A DNA stretch of 64,000 nt from Entomospira culicis (GTDB lineage: Bacteria > Spirochaetota > Spirochaetia > WRBN01), in contig NZ_CP118181.1 of assembly GCF_028748145.1 (NCBI RefSeq), positions 930,211 to 994,210 on the forward strand, written 5' to 3'. Made by a program: the position numbers and the translations under genes. This document shows, one piece after another, positions 16,010 to 27,807 of the stretch. The first letter of the stretch is position 1. The number at the start of each line of letters is the position of its first letter. Below the pieces are notes generated by a model. The model was given only the letters and a program-made list of their open reading frames with translations. It had not been told where the DNA came from and did no database searches.

Positions 16010-17020
16010 GTGAATTTAATGAAAACTATTCTCTTTCTCCTTTTGACGCTTTTCCCACTTACTTTATGGGCAACTCCTGAAGATGAGGAGCATGTCAACC
16101 AATTTATGGAGGAGATCCGTGACTTATCCAGAGAAGAACAGATCGACGCACTCTTTTTACAAGCAAACGATGCTTTACTGCAAAAAAAATATACGTTAGC
16201 CATCGCTTATGCCGAACGCGCGCGTGCGCTGGCGCCAACAAATCCTAAAGTTGTGGCGAATGCGGACTCTATTATTCGTATTGCTAACGCCCAAATCGCC
16301 CAAGAAGAGGCACAAAAAAATCAACAAGAAGAGAAGGTCAACTGGTCTACCGATGATAATATCATCGACAGAAATCGCTATCTCTTTCTTGCGTCCCTAC
16401 AGCTCGACAACTACACCTTTCGCTGGGAGCGAAATCCCACTTATGCACGTGCTGGGCTAGGCATCAACCTAGAGGGCTACTTACCCTTCATGGATAAACA
16501 ATTTGGCTTTGCCCTTGCCTACTCCTCGCAATTTATTGATTTTAGTTTCCCTAAAATAGCCAAAGATTTCATCAACATGCGCTATGATGCCTTTTTTGTT
16601 TGGCGCACCACGTGGCGTATTCCTGCCGTGGAGATTCAAAGTACCATTGCTCTCAAATTTGGTGTATCAGGGCAATACATCATTCCCCTCAATCACATCG
16701 ATCCTGATATAGGTGAGCTACCCGAACCTTTTATTCTGCCGAAATTCGCTCTTACCTTTCAAGATGCCATCATTGGTCGCTTCATTCCTAATAATTTCAC
16801 TAAAAACCTATATCTTAACGCTAACTTTGGTTTAGAATATCTGCCATTTCATCGTACCAAGGAGAGTATTGCACTGGAATTCTCCTTAGGTCTCTTCTAC
16901 AGCCTAGGCAACATCTCTTTTGGCCCACTCTACCACTTCCGATACCATCGACTCATCCGTGCCAATCAAGTACTAAGTTATAATCGCTGGGCATTTACCA
17001 TCAATTACACCGTCTATTAA
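16010..17020 (+). CDS. Exported protein with short TPR-like helical segment and C-terminal beta-barrel
   Basis: AAGGAG (15992-15997) favours GTG 16010; the ATG at 16019 begins the same signal peptide (KTILFLLLTLFPLTLWA). Residues about 25-110 are helical with one TPR-like pair (LFLQANDALLQKKYTLAIAYAERARALAPTNPKV). After a charged linker, about 200 residues alternate in amphipathic strands ending in an aromatic residue (INYTVY), as in outer-membrane barrels. No enzymatic motif is seen. Its 3' end overlaps the convergent GH57-like gene by 4 bases. A TPR-plus-barrel envelope protein; function unknown. Confidence 0.75.
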   Translation: MNLMKTILFLLLTLFPLTLWATPEDEEHVNQFMEEIRDLSREEQIDALFLQANDALLQKKYTLAIAYAERARALAPTNPKVVANADSIIRIANAQIAQEEAQKNQQEEKVNWSTDDNIIDRNRYLFLASLQLDNYTFRWERNPTYARAGLGINLEGYLPFMDKQFGFALAYSSQFIDFSFPKIAKDFINMRYDAFFVWRTTWRIPAVEIQSTIALKFGVSGQYIIPLNHIDPDIGELPEPFILPKFALTFQDAIIGRFIPNNFTKNLYLNANFGLEYLPFHRTKESIALEFSLGLFYSLGNISFGPLYHFRYHRLIRANQVLSYNRWAFTINYTVY

Positions 17021-18852
17021 TTTATCTCCTTAGCAGATAATAAGTTAGAATCTTTTTCAAACAACTCTAAACGCATCACAATATCCAACCGTTGCTCGCT
17101 CGCAGGGGGAAGCTCAACAGGTAATAAGATGAGAATCGCCACTCCTTGATGCTCCTCTCGTCCAGAAAACGCTGTTGTAAGGGTTTTTCTCCAGAGAGTT
17201 ATAGGATGCGAAAAAGAGATGGAAATCTTTATCCGCTTCTCTTCTGAAATCATATCAATATAAGAGATCTCCTCATAAGAGTCAGGTGCTAACTCGCCGT
17301 GTTTACTAAAACATTTCATCGACGCATCTAAAGAGAAGTTAAGTTCAACGCCAAATTTTCGACTCACATGACCTAACGCATGATTACTCAAGACGTAGCG
17401 CACCTCTAAATAAGAGGCATGAAAACGAAATTCTTTTTCTAATAAAAGCAAGGTCTCATCAATATTCTTTTCCAAAGCGTATTTAGCCTGATTACCCCCC
17501 ATCTTAAGCTCTACCAACTCGTATACACTCTGGGCAAATTCTGCATGAAACGGCTCTGCTATCGGCTCATTCCAATCACGATAGCTAAATACTTGTGGAT
17601 AAAAAAAGTCGTGAAATGCCCGCGAGTAACCAGCAAGATGATCCTTAGCAAAGACATTAAGTAAGGAAATCCCTGAAGGGAAAAAATCCCAAGCAAAGAG
17701 CACAGCTCCACGCGCATGGACAAATGCATTACTCAATGCGCTCTGATAAAGCACCTCATCCAAGCCATCCATATCAAAATCAGCTCGAACTAACCCGTAA
17801 TTGATCGCCTCGGCTTCACGGACAATCTGATCAGCCTGTAAAAGGTGGTGCATTGCCTTCTCGCGTGCCTGTGCATTGAGAAATCCACCATAACGCCGAT
17901 GCCAGTAAAATTGATGGTTTTGTGCGCGTAATACACTCTGAATCGCAATGTGTTTACGGCTTTTATCCCGCTTAATTTGCCGTACACTCAATGCCGTATG
18001 AATGCTTTTAGCGTGAAATAAGCGTATAGAAAATTGATTAAATAACTCATTTCGATAAAAATCAGACTTTGTATCAAAAACCACGCCCGTGGAAGCCGGT
18101 AAATAAACCCGTTTAATCGGCTTAGAAAGTGTTTTATAACGAGTTAAAATCTTTGATGGTAACGTAAATTGAACGCCCTTTGCCTGTAGCGCATTAAGAA
18201 TACGCTCTAGTGCTACCACGTCTCTGCCATCACTAACTAAAGAGAGCAAGCCGTCGCCATCGCAAGGTAAATCTAAGATACGTTGCACTTCTGCGTCTAC
18301 TTCAGCATCAAGATTTAATCGTTCAAAAGGAAAAACCCAAAGCGTCTTACCCATCTCTTCCGTCAAAAAGAGCTCCCCAGGGGAAAGAATCCCACTGGCG
18401 TTAAAACGGCAACGATCGACAAACGTATAATGAAGATCGCCGGTCTTTAAACTATGAACCAAAGATGGCTCCCATACATCACCGTTGAGATAGGCACCAT
18501 GCGGTTTTTTACCAAAATACTCACGTAAGGCCAGCGCCATCTCTACCATCTGTGCAGTGCGATCTTGTGGCGAAAGTAAGGGAATAAACGAAGCATAATA
18601 AGCTCCCCCCAAGATTTCCATCTGCTTACGCGAGACCAGTTCATTCATCGCGGAGATCGCCTCATTATGATAAGCTTTGAGCCATTGCAACGTCTCGCCA
18701 CACAGGTAATGCGTAAACGACCACTCCTGCCTTGCATAAAAAAGGCGAATAAATGGACGAATTTCCCGTTCATAAAAGTGCGATAACGTCTCTTCATCCA
18801 CCCCCAAAGGTAGCTCATGGTGGATAGTTAAAATAATCTGCTTAATCGACAA
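17017..18852 (-). CDS. GH57-like protein with lost catalytic residues, last gene of the rnf operon
   Basis: The N-terminal half follows GH57 4-alpha-glucanotransferases/alpha-amylases, and about 200 C-terminal residues resemble the beta-rich domain of those enzymes. The active-site regions are changed. The HNHQP motif is IHHELPLG. The GGxYEPxLP motif is GGAYYASFIP (82-91). The nucleophile motif WLTERVWEP is YLNGDVWEP (121-129), with Gly124 where the catalytic Glu belongs, and the DDGEKFG acid/base motif is SDGRDVV. Catalysis is therefore unlikely; a binding or regulatory role is possible. It starts with TTG 10 bases after rnfB, so it is cotranscribed with it. Confidence 0.8.
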   Translation of the reverse strand: MSIKQIILTIHHELPLGVDEETLSHFYEREIRPFIRLFYARQEWSFTHYLCGETLQWLKAYHNEAISAMNELVSRKQMEILGGAYYASFIPLLSPQDRTAQMVEMALALREYFGKKPHGAYLNGDVWEPSLVHSLKTGDLHYTFVDRCRFNASGILSPGELFLTEEMGKTLWVFPFERLNLDAEVDAEVQRILDLPCDGDGLLSLVSDGRDVVALERILNALQAKGVQFTLPSKILTRYKTLSKPIKRVYLPASTGVVFDTKSDFYRNELFNQFSIRLFHAKSIHTALSVRQIKRDKSRKHIAIQSVLRAQNHQFYWHRRYGGFLNAQAREKAMHHLLQADQIVREAEAINYGLVRADFDMDGLDEVLYQSALSNAFVHARGAVLFAWDFFPSGISLLNVFAKDHLAGYSRAFHDFFYPQVFSYRDWNEPIAEPFHAEFAQSVYELVELKMGGNQAKYALEKNIDETLLLLEKEFRFHASYLEVRYVLSNHALGHVSRKFGVELNFSLDASMKCFSKHGELAPDSYEEISYIDMISEEKRIKISISFSHPITLWRKTLTTAFSGREEHQGVAILILLPVELPPASEQRLDIVMRLELFEKDSNLLSAKEIN

Positions 18853-18862
18853 AATGCCCGCC

Positions 18863-19720
18863 CTATTCCTCTACCTTAGAGGTCATATTCGTCCGCTCAA
18901 AGGCATGAATCACCTGTGTCGGGCAACCATAAATAATACGTCGCATATGCTCTTTTGATATCACTTCCTTTCCGCGTTGAGCAAGAAAATTCTCCACAAA
19001 AAAGGTATCGGCACTGCTCTGTTTTTGACAACTCGCGCAACCCGTACATCCGCCACTAGGACAGATTCTCTCCTTCTCCTGCTCCGAAACAGAAGAGCTA
19101 CAAGCTACCGAGGCTAACCTATCGCGATCCAAAATTTTAATTAAATCCTTAGGACAACTCGAGACACATAACCCACAGCCAATACAGCGCTCCCCATCGA
19201 TGTAAATCTTTCCCGCTTTATCGCGTGTAATGGCCTCAACGGGACAACTAGGAATACAGTCGCCACGCCCAATACAGCGCTCAAAACAGCTAAATTCATT
19301 ACCCACTAAACCTACAATGTCATGACAAGAAGCACTTTTGTTCTGGACATCTACCCGCAAAAAAGATTGATTGGTATGCGGATTACTCTCCTGACAAGCC
19401 AAAAATGCCACCTTAGGCGTACTGCTAGAGATAATTTGTCGGCTCGCATAGTAGCCCAAGAGGTTGCGCACATGTTGATGCTCAGCATCATTCATCAAAA
19501 AACAACGCTCCACGTGCATCTCTTGTTGCATACTCAAAGCCATCGCAAAGTCATGACAACTCTGATATCCACACTTACCGCAGTCATCCCCCGGTAGCGC
19601 ATCTTCTACCACCTTAACCTTCGAGACCCCCTCGCTAGTGAGATTCGAGAAAAAGAGTACCGAGCCTACACTCACTAATGCTAAAAGCAGTATGATTAAT
19701 ATTATCGAAAAAATGATCAT
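18863..19720 (-). CDS. rnfB: Rnf complex ferredoxin subunit RnfB
   Basis: RnfB receives electrons from ferredoxin. An N-terminal membrane anchor (about 1-28) is followed by the LPGDDCGKCGYQSC cluster motif. Two ferredoxin-type 4Fe-4S motifs come next (CIGRGDCIPSCP and CIGCGLCVSSCP), and a further cysteine set is present (CPSGGCTGCASC). All cluster ligands that I would expect are there, in contrast to the membrane subunits of this operon. It lies 24 bases after rnfA and 10 before the GH57-like gene. Electron-carrying function is plausible, but its partners lack their usual cofactors. Confidence 0.92.
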   Translation of the reverse strand: MIIFSIILIILLLALVSVGSVLFFSNLTSEGVSKVKVVEDALPGDDCGKCGYQSCHDFAMALSMQQEMHVERCFLMNDAEHQHVRNLLGYYASRQIISSSTPKVAFLACQESNPHTNQSFLRVDVQNKSASCHDIVGLVGNEFSCFERCIGRGDCIPSCPVEAITRDKAGKIYIDGERCIGCGLCVSSCPKDLIKILDRDRLASVACSSSVSEQEKERICPSGGCTGCASCQKQSSADTFFVENFLAQRGKEVISKEHMRRIIYGCPTQVIHAFERTNMTSKVEE

Positions 19721-19744: not shown

Positions 19745-20296
19745 CTAATTCATTAATGGATATAATATCATATAAAAAAGCGCCGCACTCAAAAAAAGAT
19801 GAATTCTGCCACCAAAACGTGCTTGGGCGTGTAAAATAAAGCGCTCCTCATAGACCACAGCCATAAAGGCCGCTAACCAAACTGCCAACATGCCCATCCC
19901 GTAGTGTCCCAATCCTTCATGCCAAGCAATCGTGCGTTCAGCGTCTAATAAAAAGAGCGTACTACTCATCAGTACGACGGCAAAGGGATAGACCAAAAAA
20001 TCTTCAGGCATGTCATAACGTTTGAGTGGCAAAAAGCTATGAAATAAAATAAAAAAAGTAAGCATAGAAAACGAGAATTGAAGAAAAAAGAGCATCACGC
20101 GCCAGCTGTAATGCAATTGACTACTCAATAAAACCAGAAGAAGTAACGTCAGCGTGGAGATTATCACAAAGAGGATACTCTTTATGAATAGGATCCCCTT
20201 ATGATGAATTGCTTTTAGTAAAAAGGCGTGCCCGTAAAGAGAGAATAATAAATAGTTTATTATAAGATTATAAACAAAATTTTGCGTCAAATTCAT
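19745..20296 (-). CDS. RnfA-like membrane subunit lacking all cysteines
   Basis: About six transmembrane helices in 183 residues and the position between rnfE and rnfB fit RnfA (NqrE family). RnfA normally supplies two cysteines (for example in LGICPFL) to an iron-sulphur cluster buried between RnfA and RnfE. This protein contains no cysteine: the corresponding segment reads LYGHAFL. Sequence similarity to ordinary RnfA is otherwise low, so the call rests on order, length and topology. It overlaps rnfE by 4 bases (ATGA), implying coupled translation. It is intact, so it is not simply a decayed gene. Confidence 0.62.
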   Translation of the reverse strand: MNLTQNFVYNLIINYLLFSLYGHAFLLKAIHHKGILFIKSILFVIISTLTLLLLVLLSSQLHYSWRVMLFFLQFSFSMLTFFILFHSFLPLKRYDMPEDFLVYPFAVVLMSSTLFLLDAERTIAWHEGLGHYGMGMLAVWLAAFMAVVYEERFILHAQARFGGRIHLFLSAALFYMILYPLMN

Positions 20297-20883
20297 GCCA
20301 ACCTCCTTCGCATCTTCGTAGCAAGATCATCCAGCGTACTGTAACTAAGAAAAAAGAAAATAATCATCAATGTGCGTCCCATCGAACTCTGCCAAAATGA
20401 CCAAACCCCTACCGTAATCAACTTTCGCTCTACCCCTAGAGGCATCAACTTATGGATAATTGCATAGCTACCCAAAAGCGTAACCAAAACAACGCTTATC
20501 GTTAAAATGATTTGCTTGGGATTTTGCGAGAGATGCTGTGCCTCATAGACATTCTCTATACGACTAATTAAAACGCTCAATAAGACAAATAAGATCATAC
20601 GTTCTAAATGTTTCGTATCAAAAAGATAGAAAAAAGATCGCTCAATAAGCGCAAAAGTTAGCGAAACAAAGATACCAAAGAGTAAAACCATCGCTGCGCT
20701 CACTTCACGCTGAATTCGTAATCTATCAATTTGATAAAATAAGCGTGGCACCGCCAGTAACACCAATAACGACCAACCAAGACTCAATACCCAGCCAATC
20801 ACACCAATATCACTGGGAATCAGCATTGCATGCAAAAATAACACCAACAAAAGTGTGTTGCTATAGATCATACGCTCTTTCAT
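20293..20883 (-). CDS. RnfE-like membrane subunit lacking all cysteines
   Basis: The 196-residue polytopic protein sits in the rnfE position (between rnfG and rnfA) with about six hydrophobic segments. RnfE (NqrD family) normally carries two conserved cysteines (for example LGLCPTLAV), which with RnfA hold a membrane iron-sulphur centre. Here no cysteine occurs anywhere; the N-terminal segment reads LVLFLHAMLIPS. Start ATG follows directly on the rnfG stop. The identification is by synteny and topology rather than by motif. Confidence 0.62.
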   Translation of the reverse strand: MKERMIYSNTLLLVLFLHAMLIPSDIGVIGWVLSLGWSLLVLLAVPRLFYQIDRLRIQREVSAAMVLLFGIFVSLTFALIERSFFYLFDTKHLERMILFVLLSVLISRIENVYEAQHLSQNPKQIILTISVVLVTLLGSYAIIHKLMPLGVERKLITVGVWSFWQSSMGRTLMIIFFFLSYSTLDDLATKMRRRLA

Positions 20884-21402
20884 TTATACCCTCGATCCTT
20901 CTGCCTGCACATACGCCTGCCCATGCTTGAGTAACTCATATATATAGATGCCCTCACGAGTTGGCCTACTCTGCTCTGTTATATAACGATGATACCCCTC
21001 CAGCAGTTGATCACTAGGCAAGGGAACATAAAGATACTCTTTGGCATAAACAACTGCTTTTAGATCGCCACTATTCCCATAATGCGCGATCAACTCCAAA
21101 GGCAGACCATAATTCTCCACCCACAAGTTGAGCACCCAAAAGAGCTCCTCACTACTAGGCAGCTCCTCGTCCAACTGAAGCGCTCCATAGGATCCACGAA
21201 TAACGCGACGAATCGTAGCATCTTGAACGGTATAGGCAACGACATAATCTTGTGAAATACCGACTTTATTTAACATCTCATAATTGTAATTCAGACTCTT
21301 TTTTTTGTACATAAAAGAAGAGACAATGGTTAATATCAATAAAATAAACGCGATTACCCCAAAAGTGATGCCATAAATTTTTGCACTGCGCTCCATTCTC
21401 AT
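20884..21402 (-). CDS. RnfG-like single-pass protein without the FMN-attachment motif
   Basis: The protein has 172 residues: one N-terminal transmembrane helix (about 9-30) and an extracytoplasmic domain. This is the topology of RnfG, normally about 180-220 residues with FMN covalently bound to the Thr of an S(G)ATxS/T motif near the C-terminus. No SGAT-like motif is present. The C-terminal half reads IYIYELLKHGQAYVQAEG, where the motif would be expected. It overlaps rnfD by 4 bases (ATGA) and abuts rnfE. Called RnfG by position; it could be an unrelated single-pass protein that replaced it. Confidence 0.55.
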   Translation of the reverse strand: MRMERSAKIYGITFGVIAFILLILTIVSSFMYKKKSLNYNYEMLNKVGISQDYVVAYTVQDATIRRVIRGSYGALQLDEELPSSEELFWVLNLWVENYGLPLELIAHYGNSGDLKAVVYAKEYLYVPLPSDQLLEGYHRYITEQSRPTREGIYIYELLKHGQAYVQAEGSRV

Positions 21403-22250
21403 GTGCGATGCCTCCCTAGCTTTTGTTTAGAAAATGTACGCCCCAACGTATGACGATGAATGACGGGACTAACCATATTTGCAATCAAAATCGCCACGAC
21501 AAAGCTAAGATCCCCTAGTTGATATCCCCAAAAAAAGAGCGCGCTCAAAAAACCAATCAACAATCCATAAAAAATCTTCCCGATAAGGCGCATGGGTATA
21601 GAAGAGGGATTAGGTGCAACAAATAGCGCAAGGAAAAGCCAACTCCCACCACTAGCAAGAGGCGTAAATGATTCTCCAGCCATCATCGATAAGAGGTAAG
21701 CCAGACTTAGGTACGATAGAATAGCGCTGAGACTGACCGAGCCATTGATAATGCCCAACAAGGTTAAGATAAGCCAACTAGCGACCAACACTCCAGCTAA
21801 TATCGGGTTAGACCACAGCGTCGCCAAGCCGGCATAGGGAGTACTCAACAAATAATAGAGTAAGCCCACCATCGCAGGATTGAGGTAGTTCGCCCCCATG
21901 CCACCAATCGCCCACTTACCTATAATAATGGTGAAAAAAGCAATGCTAAAGAGCGTCCATGGATCGAAGAGCTGTATAGGCAGAAGTAATGCTAAAATCG
22001 TCGCACTCACCCAAGCCGTACCGTCTAAGAGCATAAATTTTCGATACAAAAGATTCATCAAAAGCTCCAGACCCGTGCTCATCGCTAATAAAATACCCCA
22101 ACGTAGAAGAATCTCCCCCTGCCCTTCCAATAACCATGCAAGGATCAATTGCAAACCCAACGCTAGTGTCATCAAGCCCATCTGCAAAGAGGTGCGTTGC
22201 CAGCTACGGATAAACGGTGCCGACTTGACCCCAGAAAAGAGTATCTCCAT
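21399..22250 (-). CDS. rnfD: Rnf complex membrane subunit RnfD, flavin-attachment region missing
   Basis: RnfD/NqrB family features are clear: DGTAWVSATILALLLP, IGGMGANYLNPAMVG, LFVAPNPSSIP and a late VVAILIANMVSPVI. About ten hydrophobic segments are visible. The DAVSGAT-like segment, which carries covalent FMN through Thr, should lie between LNPAMVG and the next pair of helices. Only a short GLATLWSNP stretch stands there, and no S/T-GAT motif occurs. The gene starts 4 bases after rnfC, with GGGGAGG within the rnfC end as ribosome binding site. Confidence 0.85.
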   Translation of the reverse strand: MEILFSGVKSAPFIRSWQRTSLQMGLMTLALGLQLILAWLLEGQGEILLRWGILLAMSTGLELLMNLLYRKFMLLDGTAWVSATILALLLPIQLFDPWTLFSIAFFTIIIGKWAIGGMGANYLNPAMVGLLYYLLSTPYAGLATLWSNPILAGVLVASWLILTLLGIINGSVSLSAILSYLSLAYLLSMMAGESFTPLASGGSWLFLALFVAPNPSSIPMRLIGKIFYGLLIGFLSALFFWGYQLGDLSFVVAILIANMVSPVIHRHTLGRTFSKQKLGRHRT

Positions 22251-22254
22251 GATG

Positions 22255-23589
22255 CTATTGCCTCCCCGTTAGCGTAGGTTTATCTTGTGCTTGCACAAAT
22301 GTCTGACTTAGCTCCAATCTTGCAGGGCAGTGATACGAACAGAGCCCACAAGTGATACACTCCGATAGTCCATAGGCATGCGCAATGTCGAGACGATTTG
22401 CCTTAATGCTCTGGTACATCTCTCGTGGGGCAAGAGACAAGGGACAACCACGAAAACAGGCACTACAGCCACTGCATGCGGTGGGTCTTGCCGATTTTGT
22501 CTCTTTTGGCAACAACGCCATAATGGCGACCATCTCTTTGGTGAGTGGAGTATCAAGATCGATCACCATCTTACCAAGCATCGCGGTGTGGGCGACAATA
22601 GTTGCATTTTTTGCCGTAAGCCCGCCACACTCTTCTAATAAAAAGCCAATTGGCGTTCCTAATTTGGCAATCAGCGAACGCGAATGTTTTACGCCCGCCC
22701 CAGCCACACTAATGGCGCGATCAATAAGTGGCTTAGCAAAGGCTAGCGCCTCATAACTGGCGATAAATGTAGCAATATTACTAATCACCATGCCTTTATC
22801 TTCTGCGCTAACGCTTGGTAGCAGACGCTCTTGGGTGAGGCTATAAACCATCAGACGTTCATGACGATAGGGATATTTAGCATCTAGCAGGAGCTCTCGA
22901 ACCTCCAATTTGGTAATCTCTTTCAGTGATTGGGAGAGGGTCTGAAGTTCTGCAGAGAAGGTACGATTGCTTACCAAGACGATGGTTTTAGGCTCTAAAA
23001 GTCTCGCGGCGATGGCAATACCACTGGTAATTGCCGTAAGTTGCTCTTTAAGGAGCTGTTGCGCAAGGCTAAGATAGGCATCGACCTCACTGGCATCGAC
23101 GACCAATATGGAACAAGACTTCTCTTTTGTAGTCCACTTAATATGAATAGGCACTGCCGATCCATCTAACTCGACCACGCCTTTACTGGAGAGTTCGCTA
23201 AGGATTTGCTGTTTATTCCAGTTGCTGTAATCGCGAACCGCATCTTTGGCTTGCACACGGAAACGCCCACCCGTAGCCACGTCGATAAAGAGCATCTTCT
23301 TACCATTGACATGCACGCGTGAAGTAATCGCCTTGACTTCACCAGGAATGGCGCTATGAATATTTGCCGAGTGCATCGTCGTTGCCTTGGCGATAAGCAT
23401 CCCCTCCTCTACGCGATCACCCACGTGGACAACGGGTAGAGCCTCCTTCCCGGCATGTTGAAGCACCGGATAGCTGGCAATAATGGGAATTGCCGCAAAG
23501 TGAAATGTATCGTCGGCTTGGTTTGATGGCTTATTAGGCGCCTTGACCCCAGAAATCCTCATGATTCTAATTTCGTTCTCCCTACTCAT
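22255..23589 (-). CDS. rnfC: Rnf complex subunit RnfC with degraded NADH/FMN motifs and intact Fe-S motifs
   Basis: RnfC normally takes or donates electrons with NAD(H) through FMN and two 4Fe-4S clusters. The N-terminal barrel (VHVGDRVEEGMLIAKA, HSAIPGEV) and both cluster motifs (CSGCSACFRGCP, CITCGLCSYHCP) are present. The nucleotide-binding motifs are not: GMGGAGFPTH appears as ELDGSAVPIH, NxAECEPY as DASEVDAY, YPQGAEKQL as YPYRHERLM, and the GGPMMG region as TAMLGKM. The start is the ATG overlapping the previous stop (ATGA, 23586-23589). NADH oxidation therefore looks doubtful. Confidence 0.88.
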   Translation of the reverse strand: MSRENEIRIMRISGVKAPNKPSNQADDTFHFAAIPIIASYPVLQHAGKEALPVVHVGDRVEEGMLIAKATTMHSANIHSAIPGEVKAITSRVHVNGKKMLFIDVATGGRFRVQAKDAVRDYSNWNKQQILSELSSKGVVELDGSAVPIHIKWTTKEKSCSILVVDASEVDAYLSLAQQLLKEQLTAITSGIAIAARLLEPKTIVLVSNRTFSAELQTLSQSLKEITKLEVRELLLDAKYPYRHERLMVYSLTQERLLPSVSAEDKGMVISNIATFIASYEALAFAKPLIDRAISVAGAGVKHSRSLIAKLGTPIGFLLEECGGLTAKNATIVAHTAMLGKMVIDLDTPLTKEMVAIMALLPKETKSARPTACSGCSACFRGCPLSLAPREMYQSIKANRLDIAHAYGLSECITCGLCSYHCPARLELSQTFVQAQDKPTLTGRQ

Positions 23590-25685
23590 TCGTCTGTAGT
23601 CTTTGCATATTTTATCATAAATTTTAAATTGTTCATAGCCATAAAAGCCCAAAATACCAGATAATTAAGCGTACTCACGCCTAAAATTGTCCAAGCAGAG
23701 AGGTCTAACCAGTGGATAAAGACAAGGCTGGTAAGGACGGGTAGCAAGATAAAAAAGAGGTGGTAGCTTTTGGCACGTGTACGCGTAAGGCGATCGAAGA
23801 GTTGCGCGAGAGCTATCCAGCGCATGATCGATTTGGTCTCGATTGCGCCAAAAATAACTTCAGATCGCTTGAGCGTAGGCATGTCTGCACGTTCGTCGGC
23901 TAACCAAATGGGCGCATCCTTGATATTATCCTCATGCGCGAGACTTCTGCCATCACTAAGGTAAATAACCCGTTCGGCTTTGCGTTGAAAAGTTGCCAGC
24001 AATTGGTCAATTTGGCTGATATCACACCCACCATAGGCATGTAACACCCCCACGTCCCGACAGAGATCGTTAAGGTAGCCTTGGGCTAGCGCGCTAATCA
24101 GAACCACTTCGAATTTCTCTTGTTTTGCTAATGTAATCAAGGATCGTAACTCTGTATTAAGCATATAAGGTATATAGATATAACCCAAATCAGCATTATC
24201 AGAGGAAAAGCGGTAGTAACAGCCACCAGCGCTTTGCGTGATGGTACTCTGCGCCTCTACGCGATAAGATAAGGCGCCCCAGCGTCCTTCTTGATAAGGC
24301 AAGGGCGATTTCGTGTGATGTTGTAATAGAAAGTCCTCCGCTAGCGATGAAAAGGTTGATGCCATCGTGGAATTCGTTACGGTAATACTGGCCTGTGCCA
24401 TGGCTAAGTCTAAACCAAAGCGCCCCTGATGGATCACTAAGGTCTTGATCTGCGCAATCCCAGTGAGTCGCCGATGTCGCACCCAAAGTGCTCCGCCACC
24501 CCACGACCAGCGATCAAAGAGCCGACGCAAACGTGTTCGAGTAAAATTCTCCCACGATTGATGAGTCAGCGTACCCCAAAAGAGCGCCAACACCCCCGTG
24601 CGAAACCACATCGATAGCGACCAATACCAAGGAACAATCGATGCATAAGAGAACCCGACAACCAGCATCGCTAAAAGGAAAAAGAGAAAACTCTGACCAA
24701 GATACGCAAACATGACACTAAGCCAAGAAATCCCACTACGCCAAGGCACAATGGGCGTAATTTCCCCATGAAAAGAGGGTTCATTCAAACCGGAAAGGGC
24801 CTCAAAGTAGACCAAATCACTCTTCGAAATCCCTCCGGCGCAAAGCCCCTCCCCACACCGATAGTGATGCGTTACGTGCTCTCTACCATAAAGATGCTCC
24901 AGCTCTGCCTCTTCAGATAAGAGACGCGCCTTAACAGGCAAGAGCATCCCCCGTTTAAGAGAGAAGCGATCGCCTGCCTGTAAGAGCATGGTAGACTTTT
25001 TTTCTGTGTCCGCAAAGACAAAGCTATCGCGCCACTGGGCAAATGCGTTATGTGATTTATCCGCAAAAAAGTATGGCAGCAACATTCGATAGTGTAGCGT
25101 GCCCAAAGTAATTGCATAAGCCCAAAAAATTAAGCCCATATAGCTAGTAAGCATGGCGAAAGAGAAGAGTTGCGGCTGCAGGTAAAGAAGCGTAAAAAAG
25201 AGACCCCCATTGACCCACAAATAATACCCAAAACTAACCGTCTGCCTATCTGCCATTGGCACAGAAAAGCGCGCAAACTGACGACTAAGATGCCTGTGAA
25301 TGCTCCCAAAGAGTATCCACCCTAAGACGAAAAGCAATACCACCCACGCAGAGGTGATATGAAAAAATCGATGTAGCATCGCACCCAACAGCCAAAGAAG
25401 AAGTGAACTCACCCCAAAGAAGCCAGCAAAAAAGAGAGCATACTGTCGTCGTTCCCCGCCCTCTAAGCGCGATCCAACCACGTGCGCACCTTGCTCTTTC
25501 AATCTCAAGAGAATCTCAGACTCAGTTACAAGCGATGCGTCAAAGGTAATTAAGAGCGAATGATTGCCCTCTTGCTTAATATCAACGCGAATAATGCCCT
25601 GCACCTGCTGAAGAGATTCGATCAGCTCTTGCCTTAAATGACTGTGATATAAATTGCTAATTTGTATAGAAATTGCGTCTCTCAT
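23586..25685 (-). CDS. Catalytically degenerate P1B-type ATPase-like protein heading the rnf operon
   Basis: The architecture is that of a CopA/FixI heavy-metal ATPase. A ferredoxin-like HMA domain (1-70) has YHSHL where CxxC belongs. Paired helices, an actuator-like domain (236-300) and further helices follow, then P-domain-like and hinge-like segments and two final helices. Key residues are gone: DKTGT is HQGRFG (419-424), TGE is YGRE, the CPC membrane motif is absent, and GDGxND is SDGRSL (577-582). ATP-driven transport is thus unlikely. AAAGGAGGCAT precedes the ATG. It is translationally coupled to rnfC, so it is probably a structural or sensory partner of the complex. Confidence 0.8.
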   Translation of the reverse strand: MRDAISIQISNLYHSHLRQELIESLQQVQGIIRVDIKQEGNHSLLITFDASLVTESEILLRLKEQGAHVVGSRLEGGERRQYALFFAGFFGVSSLLLWLLGAMLHRFFHITSAWVVLLFVLGWILFGSIHRHLSRQFARFSVPMADRQTVSFGYYLWVNGGLFFTLLYLQPQLFSFAMLTSYMGLIFWAYAITLGTLHYRMLLPYFFADKSHNAFAQWRDSFVFADTEKKSTMLLQAGDRFSLKRGMLLPVKARLLSEEAELEHLYGREHVTHHYRCGEGLCAGGISKSDLVYFEALSGLNEPSFHGEITPIVPWRSGISWLSVMFAYLGQSFLFFLLAMLVVGFSYASIVPWYWSLSMWFRTGVLALFWGTLTHQSWENFTRTRLRRLFDRWSWGGGALWVRHRRLTGIAQIKTLVIHQGRFGLDLAMAQASITVTNSTMASTFSSLAEDFLLQHHTKSPLPYQEGRWGALSYRVEAQSTITQSAGGCYYRFSSDNADLGYIYIPYMLNTELRSLITLAKQEKFEVVLISALAQGYLNDLCRDVGVLHAYGGCDISQIDQLLATFQRKAERVIYLSDGRSLAHEDNIKDAPIWLADERADMPTLKRSEVIFGAIETKSIMRWIALAQLFDRLTRTRAKSYHLFFILLPVLTSLVFIHWLDLSAWTILGVSTLNYLVFWAFMAMNNLKFMIKYAKTTDE

Positions 25686-25697
25686 ATGCCTCCTTTC

Positions 25698-25726
25698 AGT
25701 ATACTCAAATTATCATACTTATGCAA
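25698..25726 (-). promoter_or_regulatory. Promoter of the P-type-ATPase-like/rnf/GH57-like operon
   Basis: On the minus strand: TTGCAT (25726-25721), 17-base spacer, TATACT (25703-25698). It diverges from the thiamine pyrophosphokinase promoter. Confidence 0.6.
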
Positions 25727-26495: not shown

Positions 26496-27101
26496 ATGAA
26501 AAAAATGCTTTTTTTCTTTTTTAGCCTCGCACTTCTTGCCTTCTCTGCAACCGCACAAGAGCAAGAGCACGAAGCCGTAACCGAAGAAGTCTTCGTAGAT
26601 ACGCTGGTAAAAGCGTTTCACTCGCAAAAAAAGAAGACTCCAGCTGTCGAAAATGGTACGCTCACCTTCAATGCTAGCAATGGCATCAGCTTAACCCTTC
26701 GTAGCGGTCGCCTTGTGCTTCATGCACCAACGAAGTCCTTCATCGCAGCCGGTATGAAAGCTGATGAAGAGGGTTCTTACGGTGAATTCGTTCACGTAAA
26801 TCAAGAGGCTAACACCCTCATGATCGCGCACAGCATGGCACAAACCATGGATATGCAAATGATTGAAGCTGACGAGATTGCTAAACGTCTCTTTGATGCT
26901 ACTCAAGAAAAGGATTCCATCTACACCGTAATGCACGCTAACAACATGATCATCGTAACCGATGGCGTTCTCCGCCTTGGCTTCCATGAAAAGGGTTTTG
27001 TTATCGGCGTACGTCTTGAAGTTCTTCACAACGCAGGCATCAGCAACCTCAAGAAAATTAAAGGTGCTGTCGACGGCGAGTGCTTCATCTTTAAGAAATA
27101 A
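26496..27101 (+). CDS. Secreted protein of unknown function (paralogue pair, copy 1)
   Basis: AAGGATGG precedes the ATG. A signal peptide (1-20, ending SATAQ) is followed by a 180-residue soluble domain. It shares with the next gene ENGTLTFxxxNGxxLxxR, an N-terminal aromatic/Pro segment, AHSMAQTMDMQ, a short helix (AKRLFDAT), and a C-terminal EGxxxxEExIFxx-like end. A near-consensus promoter and good codon use suggest it is abundant. There is no lipobox or transmembrane helix, so it is periplasmic or extracellular. Family not recognised. Confidence 0.78.
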   Translation: MKKMLFFFFSLALLAFSATAQEQEHEAVTEEVFVDTLVKAFHSQKKKTPAVENGTLTFNASNGISLTLRSGRLVLHAPTKSFIAAGMKADEEGSYGEFVHVNQEANTLMIAHSMAQTMDMQMIEADEIAKRLFDATQEKDSIYTVMHANNMIIVTDGVLRLGFHEKGFVIGVRLEVLHNAGISNLKKIKGAVDGECFIFKK

Positions 27102-27207: not shown

Positions 27208-27807
27208 ATGCGAGTTAAACTCCTCTTTAGTAGCTTATTTCTCCTCAGTGTAACGACATGCTCTCTCTCCTCTCAAGCGCTCACCCAAGAACACTTCACA
27301 AAGAGAATGCTTCATCTCTTTGCACAACAAGAGCCTCCCCAAGAAGTCTATAATGGCACCCTCCAATTCACTTTAGACAATGGTTTTATCCTCTACATCC
27401 GTAACTCCCAGCTAACCTTACAAGTCCCAGCAGAACCATTTATCCAAGCGGGTCTTTTAACTCAAAATAAAATTCAACTCAATAGATATGTTCTTTTTAA
27501 TGAAAAAACCAACGCTCTCATCATCGCACAGTCGCACGCGCAAACCAGAGACATGCAGTACTTAACGGCCAAAGAAATATTAAATAATCTCTACACTGCT
27601 TCCCATGATGAATTCAATCATCTTCAGCTAAACACCGATGATACAAACCAAGAGATACGCCTTAGCGATGGGATTCTTCTATTAAAAATTGATGCTAACA
27701 CACTTCATGTAGGTATCACGAGAAAAAATTTAGAAGATTTAGGGTTAGACATCACTCACCTTGAGGGGGTCATCCTCGAGGAAGAATACATCTTTTTCTC
27801 TCATTAG
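27208..27807 (+). CDS. Secreted protein of unknown function (paralogue pair, copy 2)
   Basis: AAGAAGG precedes the ATG. The signal peptide has a polar end (TTCSLSSQA); the Cys in TTC lacks the usual lipobox Leu at -3, so lipidation is uncertain. The body is collinear with the preceding gene: YNGTLQFTLDNGFIL, a QSHAQTRDMQ motif against HSMAQTMDMQ, LNNLYTAS against AKRLFDAT, and an EEEYIFFSH end. The copies diverge strongly outside these blocks, so the duplication is old. Function unknown. Confidence 0.75.
   Translation: MRVKLLFSSLFLLSVTTCSLSSQALTQEHFTKRMLHLFAQQEPPQEVYNGTLQFTLDNGFILYIRNSQLTLQVPAEPFIQAGLLTQNKIQLNRYVLFNEKTNALIIAQSHAQTRDMQYLTAKEILNNLYTASHDEFNHLQLNTDDTNQEIRLSDGILLLKIDANTLHVGITRKNLEDLGLDITHLEGVILEEEYIFFSH

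Follow-up and report, generated by a model that had tools for sequence, protein, structure and literature searches.

A probable catalytically inactive descendant of P1B-type ATPases at the head of an apparently stripped rnf operon in Entomospira culicis

What might a membrane protein with the build of a heavy-metal pump, but stripped of the residues with which such a pump works, do at the head of an operon for the Rnf complex? The question is raised by a 64,000-nucleotide stretch of the Entomospira culicis genome (contig NZ_CP118181.1, positions 930,211–994,210; hereafter, the window). An earlier note, made from the letters alone, described the product of the gene upstream of rnfC as a P1B-type pseudo-ATPase, tied to rnfC by an ATGA overlap and possibly serving an altered Rnf complex as a sensor or assembly platform. 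The coordinates bear out the overlap, in which the stop codon TGA of the pseudo-ATPase gene and the start codon ATG of rnfC are merged as ATGA (Table 1). The divergent neighbor, a thiamin pyrophosphokinase gene, starts just upstream of the pseudo-ATPase gene, which is therefore the head of the operon. Simulated neutral drift of its open reading frame (ORF) to 25% identity produced at least 12 stop codons in every run, whereas the real ORF is open, and its codon usage resembles that of the neighboring genes. Thus, the gene encodes a maintained protein and is not a decaying pseudogene.

Table 1. The pseudo-ATPase gene, its parts, and the genes that follow it in the window
Feature	Position	Strand	Basis and remarks
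Shine-Dalgarno sequence AAAGGAGG of the pseudo-ATPase gene	25685..25700	-	Strong; precedes the ATG start
P1B-type pseudo-ATPase gene (putative)	23586..25685	-	699 aa; ORF and profile alignment with domain-wise controls
Pseudo-ATPase layout, N-terminal part			HMA-like, residues 1–72; 4 TM, about 76–207; actuator-like, about 222–300; 2 TM, 319–375
Pseudo-ATPase layout, C-terminal part			Remnant P domain, about 408–420 and 488–610, with shortened N domain; 2 TM, 642–696
His-Gln codons (residues 419–420) at the DKTGT Asp-Lys site	24426..24431	-	Alignment by eye
rnfC	22255..23589	-	Begins in the ATGA overlap; 8 Cys for two [4Fe-4S] clusters kept
rnfD	21399..22250	-	PF03116; covalent-FMN Thr motif S-x-A-T-P-L lost
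rnfG-like gene	20884..21402	-	Weak (z about 4.6), plus position; covalent-FMN motif S/T-G-A-T-I-T lost
rnfE-position gene	20293..20883	-	Position and G001 counterpart; no Cys, no PF02508 match
rnfA-position gene	19745..20296	-	Position and visual match to G001 counterpart (NYLL-x-S-x-YG); no Cys, no PF02508 match
rnfB	18863..19720	-	All iron–sulfur cysteine motifs kept
GH57 family gene	17017..18852	-	Lies after rnfB in most of the related genomes examined; serves as synteny marker

The pseudo-ATPase was aligned with a profile built on 30 P1B sequences of its class; the alignment was collinear and in register, residues 1–699 of the protein against profile positions 9–749. The HMA–4TM–A–2TM–P/N–2TM architecture of P1B ATPases such as CopA, ZntA, and ATP7B is thereby reproduced over all 699 residues, together with the spacing between the actuator and phosphorylation sites, at an identity of 13–18%. 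Three controls were applied: (i) against local shuffles, the P-domain piece scored 39.2 versus 15.1 ± 2.2 (about 11 SD), the actuator piece 23.5 versus 14.8 ± 2.6 (about 3 SD), and the HMA piece 18.3 versus 13.5 ± 2.4 (about 2 SD); (ii) among the 56 ORFs of the window, the pseudo-ATPase had the best score against the P1B profile (41.6; runner-up, 25.3); and (iii) when the three pieces were scanned against 18,950 NCBIfam models as an unbiased library, the top five matches of the HMA piece were of the CopZ/MerP type (copper chaperone), the actuator piece matched P1B ATPases only, and the P-domain piece had its best match in a P-type ATPase, at the expected place. A Pfam scan of the same pieces returned unrelated matches with only a weak one to HMA_2 among them, and no family-library model reached its cut-off with the full protein. 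Taken singly, the domain matches are weak (E about 0.01), but their collinear combination makes, at the sequence level, a strong case.

The single-sequence AlphaFold2 model was poor (pLDDT 42), with an HMA-like β-α-β-β-α start and 4+2+2 membrane helices; it was too poor for a fold search, and no P-type ATPase was among the PDB matches listed for it. The alignment-guided model, which had P1B rows in its input alignment, reached a modest mean pLDDT of 56, gave Foldseek matches headed by ATP7B, HMA4, ZntA, and CopA, and was superposed by VIA-align on CopZ/CsoZ with residues 1–72 (Z 12) and on ZntA with residues 85–697 (Z 12, rmsd 11.2, 407 aligned). Because of those P1B sequences, this model is partly circular and serves as a consistency check only. 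The earlier note had let its reading depend on a structural likeness to P-type ATPases; the alignment-guided model agrees with one, subject to this circularity, and the collinear alignment, which together with its controls supports that reading, retains no catalytic Asp motif. Homologues of the pseudo-ATPase were found neither in 394 genomes of the class, including the only other member of the family (G001), where all matches were fragment-level and attributable to chance, nor in GTDB contigs of close relatives only; G001 held none at E ≤ 10, and PDB sequences gave only a CopZ-like match (E 0.66).

Compared with P1B ATPases, the pseudo-ATPase has lost nearly every residue by which such enzymes are recognized: (i) the Asp of DKTGT is replaced by His419 of HQGRF(G) when TLVIHQGRF is placed by eye on TVVFDKTGT, while MAFFT puts the neighboring KT at this site instead; no Asp stands there under either placement, and no DKT occurs anywhere in the protein; (ii) the actuator TGE is YGR (residues 266–268, within YGRE); (iii) TGDN is SALA; (iv) GDGxND is SDGRSL at residue 577, in which Asn-Asp is lost and Asp-Gly (D578–G579) is kept; and (v) CPC and the HMA CxxC are missing, the first Cys being residue 277. 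The motifs listed in the earlier note (HQGRFG, YGRE, SDGRSL, and the missing CPC and CxxC) were all located in the translation; its list is refined in that Asp-Gly is the sole remnant of a catalytic motif. From the phosphorylation site to GDG, the protein spans 158 residues, compared with 198 in the CopA of the same genome, which is intact. Elsewhere, the genome also encodes one more P-type ATPase and a CopZ-like HMA protein of 74 aa. The absence of the phosphorylation, dephosphorylation, and membrane metal-binding residues demonstrates, as far as a sequence can, that the pseudo-ATPase is not a working P-type pump. We therefore consider it very probable that the protein descends from P1B ATPases and has lost catalysis.

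The operon downstream was compared with eight canonical Rnf operons of the class and with the Rnf complex of Acetobacterium woodii, in which the cofactor residues are C25 and C113 of RnfA, C25 and C108 of RnfE, T156 of RnfD, and T185 of RnfG (PMC11889175). The gene order rnfCDGEAB, the iron–sulfur cysteines of RnfB and RnfC, and the RnfD family match are shared with A. woodii. By contrast, the RnfA/RnfE cysteines, the flavin threonines of RnfD and RnfG, the RnfC FMN/NADH loops, and ApbE are absent. The membrane subunits of the window keep none of the A. woodii cofactor residues, and the same holds for RnfD, RnfE, and RnfA of G001, where the GLCP and NC motifs of RnfA/RnfE are lost too and no rnfG ORF was found. 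In both genomes, the RnfC loops GGATFP, NGVECEPYL, and KYPQGDEK are eroded, and the [4Fe-4S] cysteines of RnfB and RnfC are kept. ApbE gave no match and PF02508 was undetectable in either genome, whereas both were found in two control relatives; the PF02508 cut-off was passed in 56 of 60 genomes of the class, and the only others to fall short were those of a Borrelia-like family (f19), with sub-threshold matches.

Homology of the subunits is of uneven firmness: firm for RnfD in both genomes; supported for RnfE and RnfA in G001, where the counterpart of the rnfA-position gene matches RnfA (z about 8), and positional in the window, where the match of the rnfE-position protein to canonical RnfE is not significant by itself; and weak for RnfG, the rnfG-like protein having no FMN_bind match. 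The alteration of the Rnf complex that the earlier note had claimed is supported by the cofactor sites of the membrane subunits and by the RnfC loops, and it goes further than that note had seen; we hold with good confidence that this operon encodes a stripped Rnf. The superfamily offers a precedent for a cofactor-less subunit kept as a structural part, namely NqrA of Na+-NQR, an RnfC homologue without redox cofactors that stayed structural (PMC12174285, PMC11889175); NQR, however, keeps its membrane electron path, whereas the Rnf of the window appears to have lost it. In most other rnf loci of the class, too (L038–L056), a GH57 family gene comes after rnfB.

In relatives, the slot upstream of rnfC normally belongs to another protein. 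Of 20 rnf loci retrieved from relatives, 15 contain a member of a family of membrane proteins of about 480–565 aa without a Pfam match, as do all four additional loci from f19 and a further genome (G014); the slot-family count includes one locus with a 229-aa ORF and one without a called rnfC ORF. In most of these loci, the gene directly precedes rnfC and overlaps it by the 4 bp of ATGA; examples are L040:7745–9244, L043:6902–8443, and L048:5964–7601, and others include Borrelia-like genomes. The pseudo-ATPase fills this slot in the window genome and shares with its usual occupant the overlap and the nature of an integral membrane protein, but profile comparison revealed no sequence similarity; as a homologue of the slot family it was rejected (hhalign 17.8 versus 19.5 ± 2.7 for shuffles), and the 56 ORFs of the window contained no convincing member of the slot family. 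Because a different conserved membrane protein normally fills the overlapping slot, the operon coupling is nothing unusual; what is new is only the occupant. The novelty that the earlier note saw in a P1B pseudoenzyme tied to an rnf operon thus holds for the occupant and not for the coupling.

Family f19, which is probably Borrelia, carries the slot protein, an RnfC–RnfD fusion of about 770 aa (L134:9008–11326, L135:8823–11129, L136:7932–10244), and then a 189-aa RnfA-like protein, with no recognizable cofactor motifs; in L134, these motifs are likewise unrecognizable and the RnfA-like protein has no Cys. Therefore, the redox chain has probably been lost, with the frame retained, more than once. 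In G014 (L137:9778–12038), an rnfC/rnfD pair accompanies the slot protein, RnfD keeps SATPL, and the FMN loops of RnfC look eroded, so this pair is a possible intermediate. A literature search found nothing direct on Borrelia RnfC.

Taken as a whole, the observations are best explained, in our judgment at about even chances, by a pseudo-ATPase that came from a P1B pump and became a non-catalytic part of a remodelled Rnf. The descendant has kept the HMA domain, eight membrane helices, and the actuator and phosphorylation domains without the catalytic residues, and would be made together with RnfC through translational coupling. Its more specific role as an integral membrane subunit or scaffold of the complex, in which it would functionally replace the unrelated protein of about 500 aa whose slot it occupies, is put forward tentatively: operon structure alone suggests the association with Rnf, and G001, the sole relative in the family, has a stripped Rnf in which the gene upstream of rnfC is FlaA-like and encodes no pseudo-ATPase. 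With the [2Fe-2S] ligands of the membrane, the two covalent-FMN sites, and the FMN/NADH loops of RnfC all gone, the complex itself can probably no longer run the U-shaped path that leads from ferredoxin through the membrane to NAD. What is left would be the RnfB and RnfC iron–sulfur modules docked on a membrane base that has lost its cofactor sites, presumably uncoupled from ion transport driven by ferredoxin oxidation. A bolder version, which we regard as doubtful, is that two former ion pumps have become a hybrid complex, in which the stripped Rnf base with its RnfB/RnfC modules has recruited the dead P1B ATPase and neither partner pumps by its own mechanism. In any of these forms, a machine that was once catalytic seems to have been retained for a different job, and that job is probably structural.

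A role apart from Rnf would also be conceivable, since a P1B fold might move or sense a substrate without ATP: the pseudo-ATPase would then be a passive or secondary channel or transporter, or a metal or redox regulator, that merely shares the operon. The eight membrane helices and the frame of actuator and P domains are retained, and the five Cys, which stand at new positions (277, 282, 489, 542, and 554), could bind something. However, nothing points to any substrate, the M5/M6 metal ligands are not recognizable, and the loss of both CPC and the HMA CxxC makes metal sensing less likely; we consider a role apart from Rnf unlikely.

Quite unlikely, in our view, is decay of the whole operon under relaxed selection in a reduced genome of 1.77 Mb, in which the redox chain would have died first with the other ORFs following. 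Simultaneous loss of many catalytic sites in linked genes and the small genome would fit such decay, as would the shortened, cofactor-free Rnf remnant that is all the Borrelia-like family of the same class keeps, but the altered genes retain their full length, stand close together, and contain no stop codons, which neutral decay to such divergence would not allow, and the cluster ligands of RnfB and RnfC are still in place. Moreover, the site loss is common to two genera, the window genome and G001, whose RnfC proteins are only 34% identical, and the stripped state is therefore probably old. That an unrelated membrane protein resembles P-type ATPases by chance, as the family libraries without a passing model and the single-sequence model without a P-type ATPase among its listed PDB matches might suggest, is extremely unlikely, because three domains match independently of one another and lie in the expected order and at the expected spacing (153 residues from YGR to HQGRF versus 147 from TGE to DKTGT in the genome's own CopA), and because the controls with shuffles, with the other ORFs of the window, and with an unbiased library agree.

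In bacteria, there seems to be hardly any record of P-type ATPases that have lost catalysis; a literature search on them found nothing direct. A maintained Rnf without a membrane redox chain would be an unusual case of a respiratory complex retained for a purpose other than redox chemistry. It raises the testable question of what an Rnf membrane base is capable of without electrons, and links this locus to a conserved, uncharacterized membrane protein whose gene precedes rnfC throughout the class and in the Borrelia-like family.

Elsewhere in the window, the protein encoded at 26496–27101, which has no significant Pfam match, forms with that at 27208–27807 a pair of tandem paralogues of about 200 aa that have signal-like N-termini and are 31% identical.
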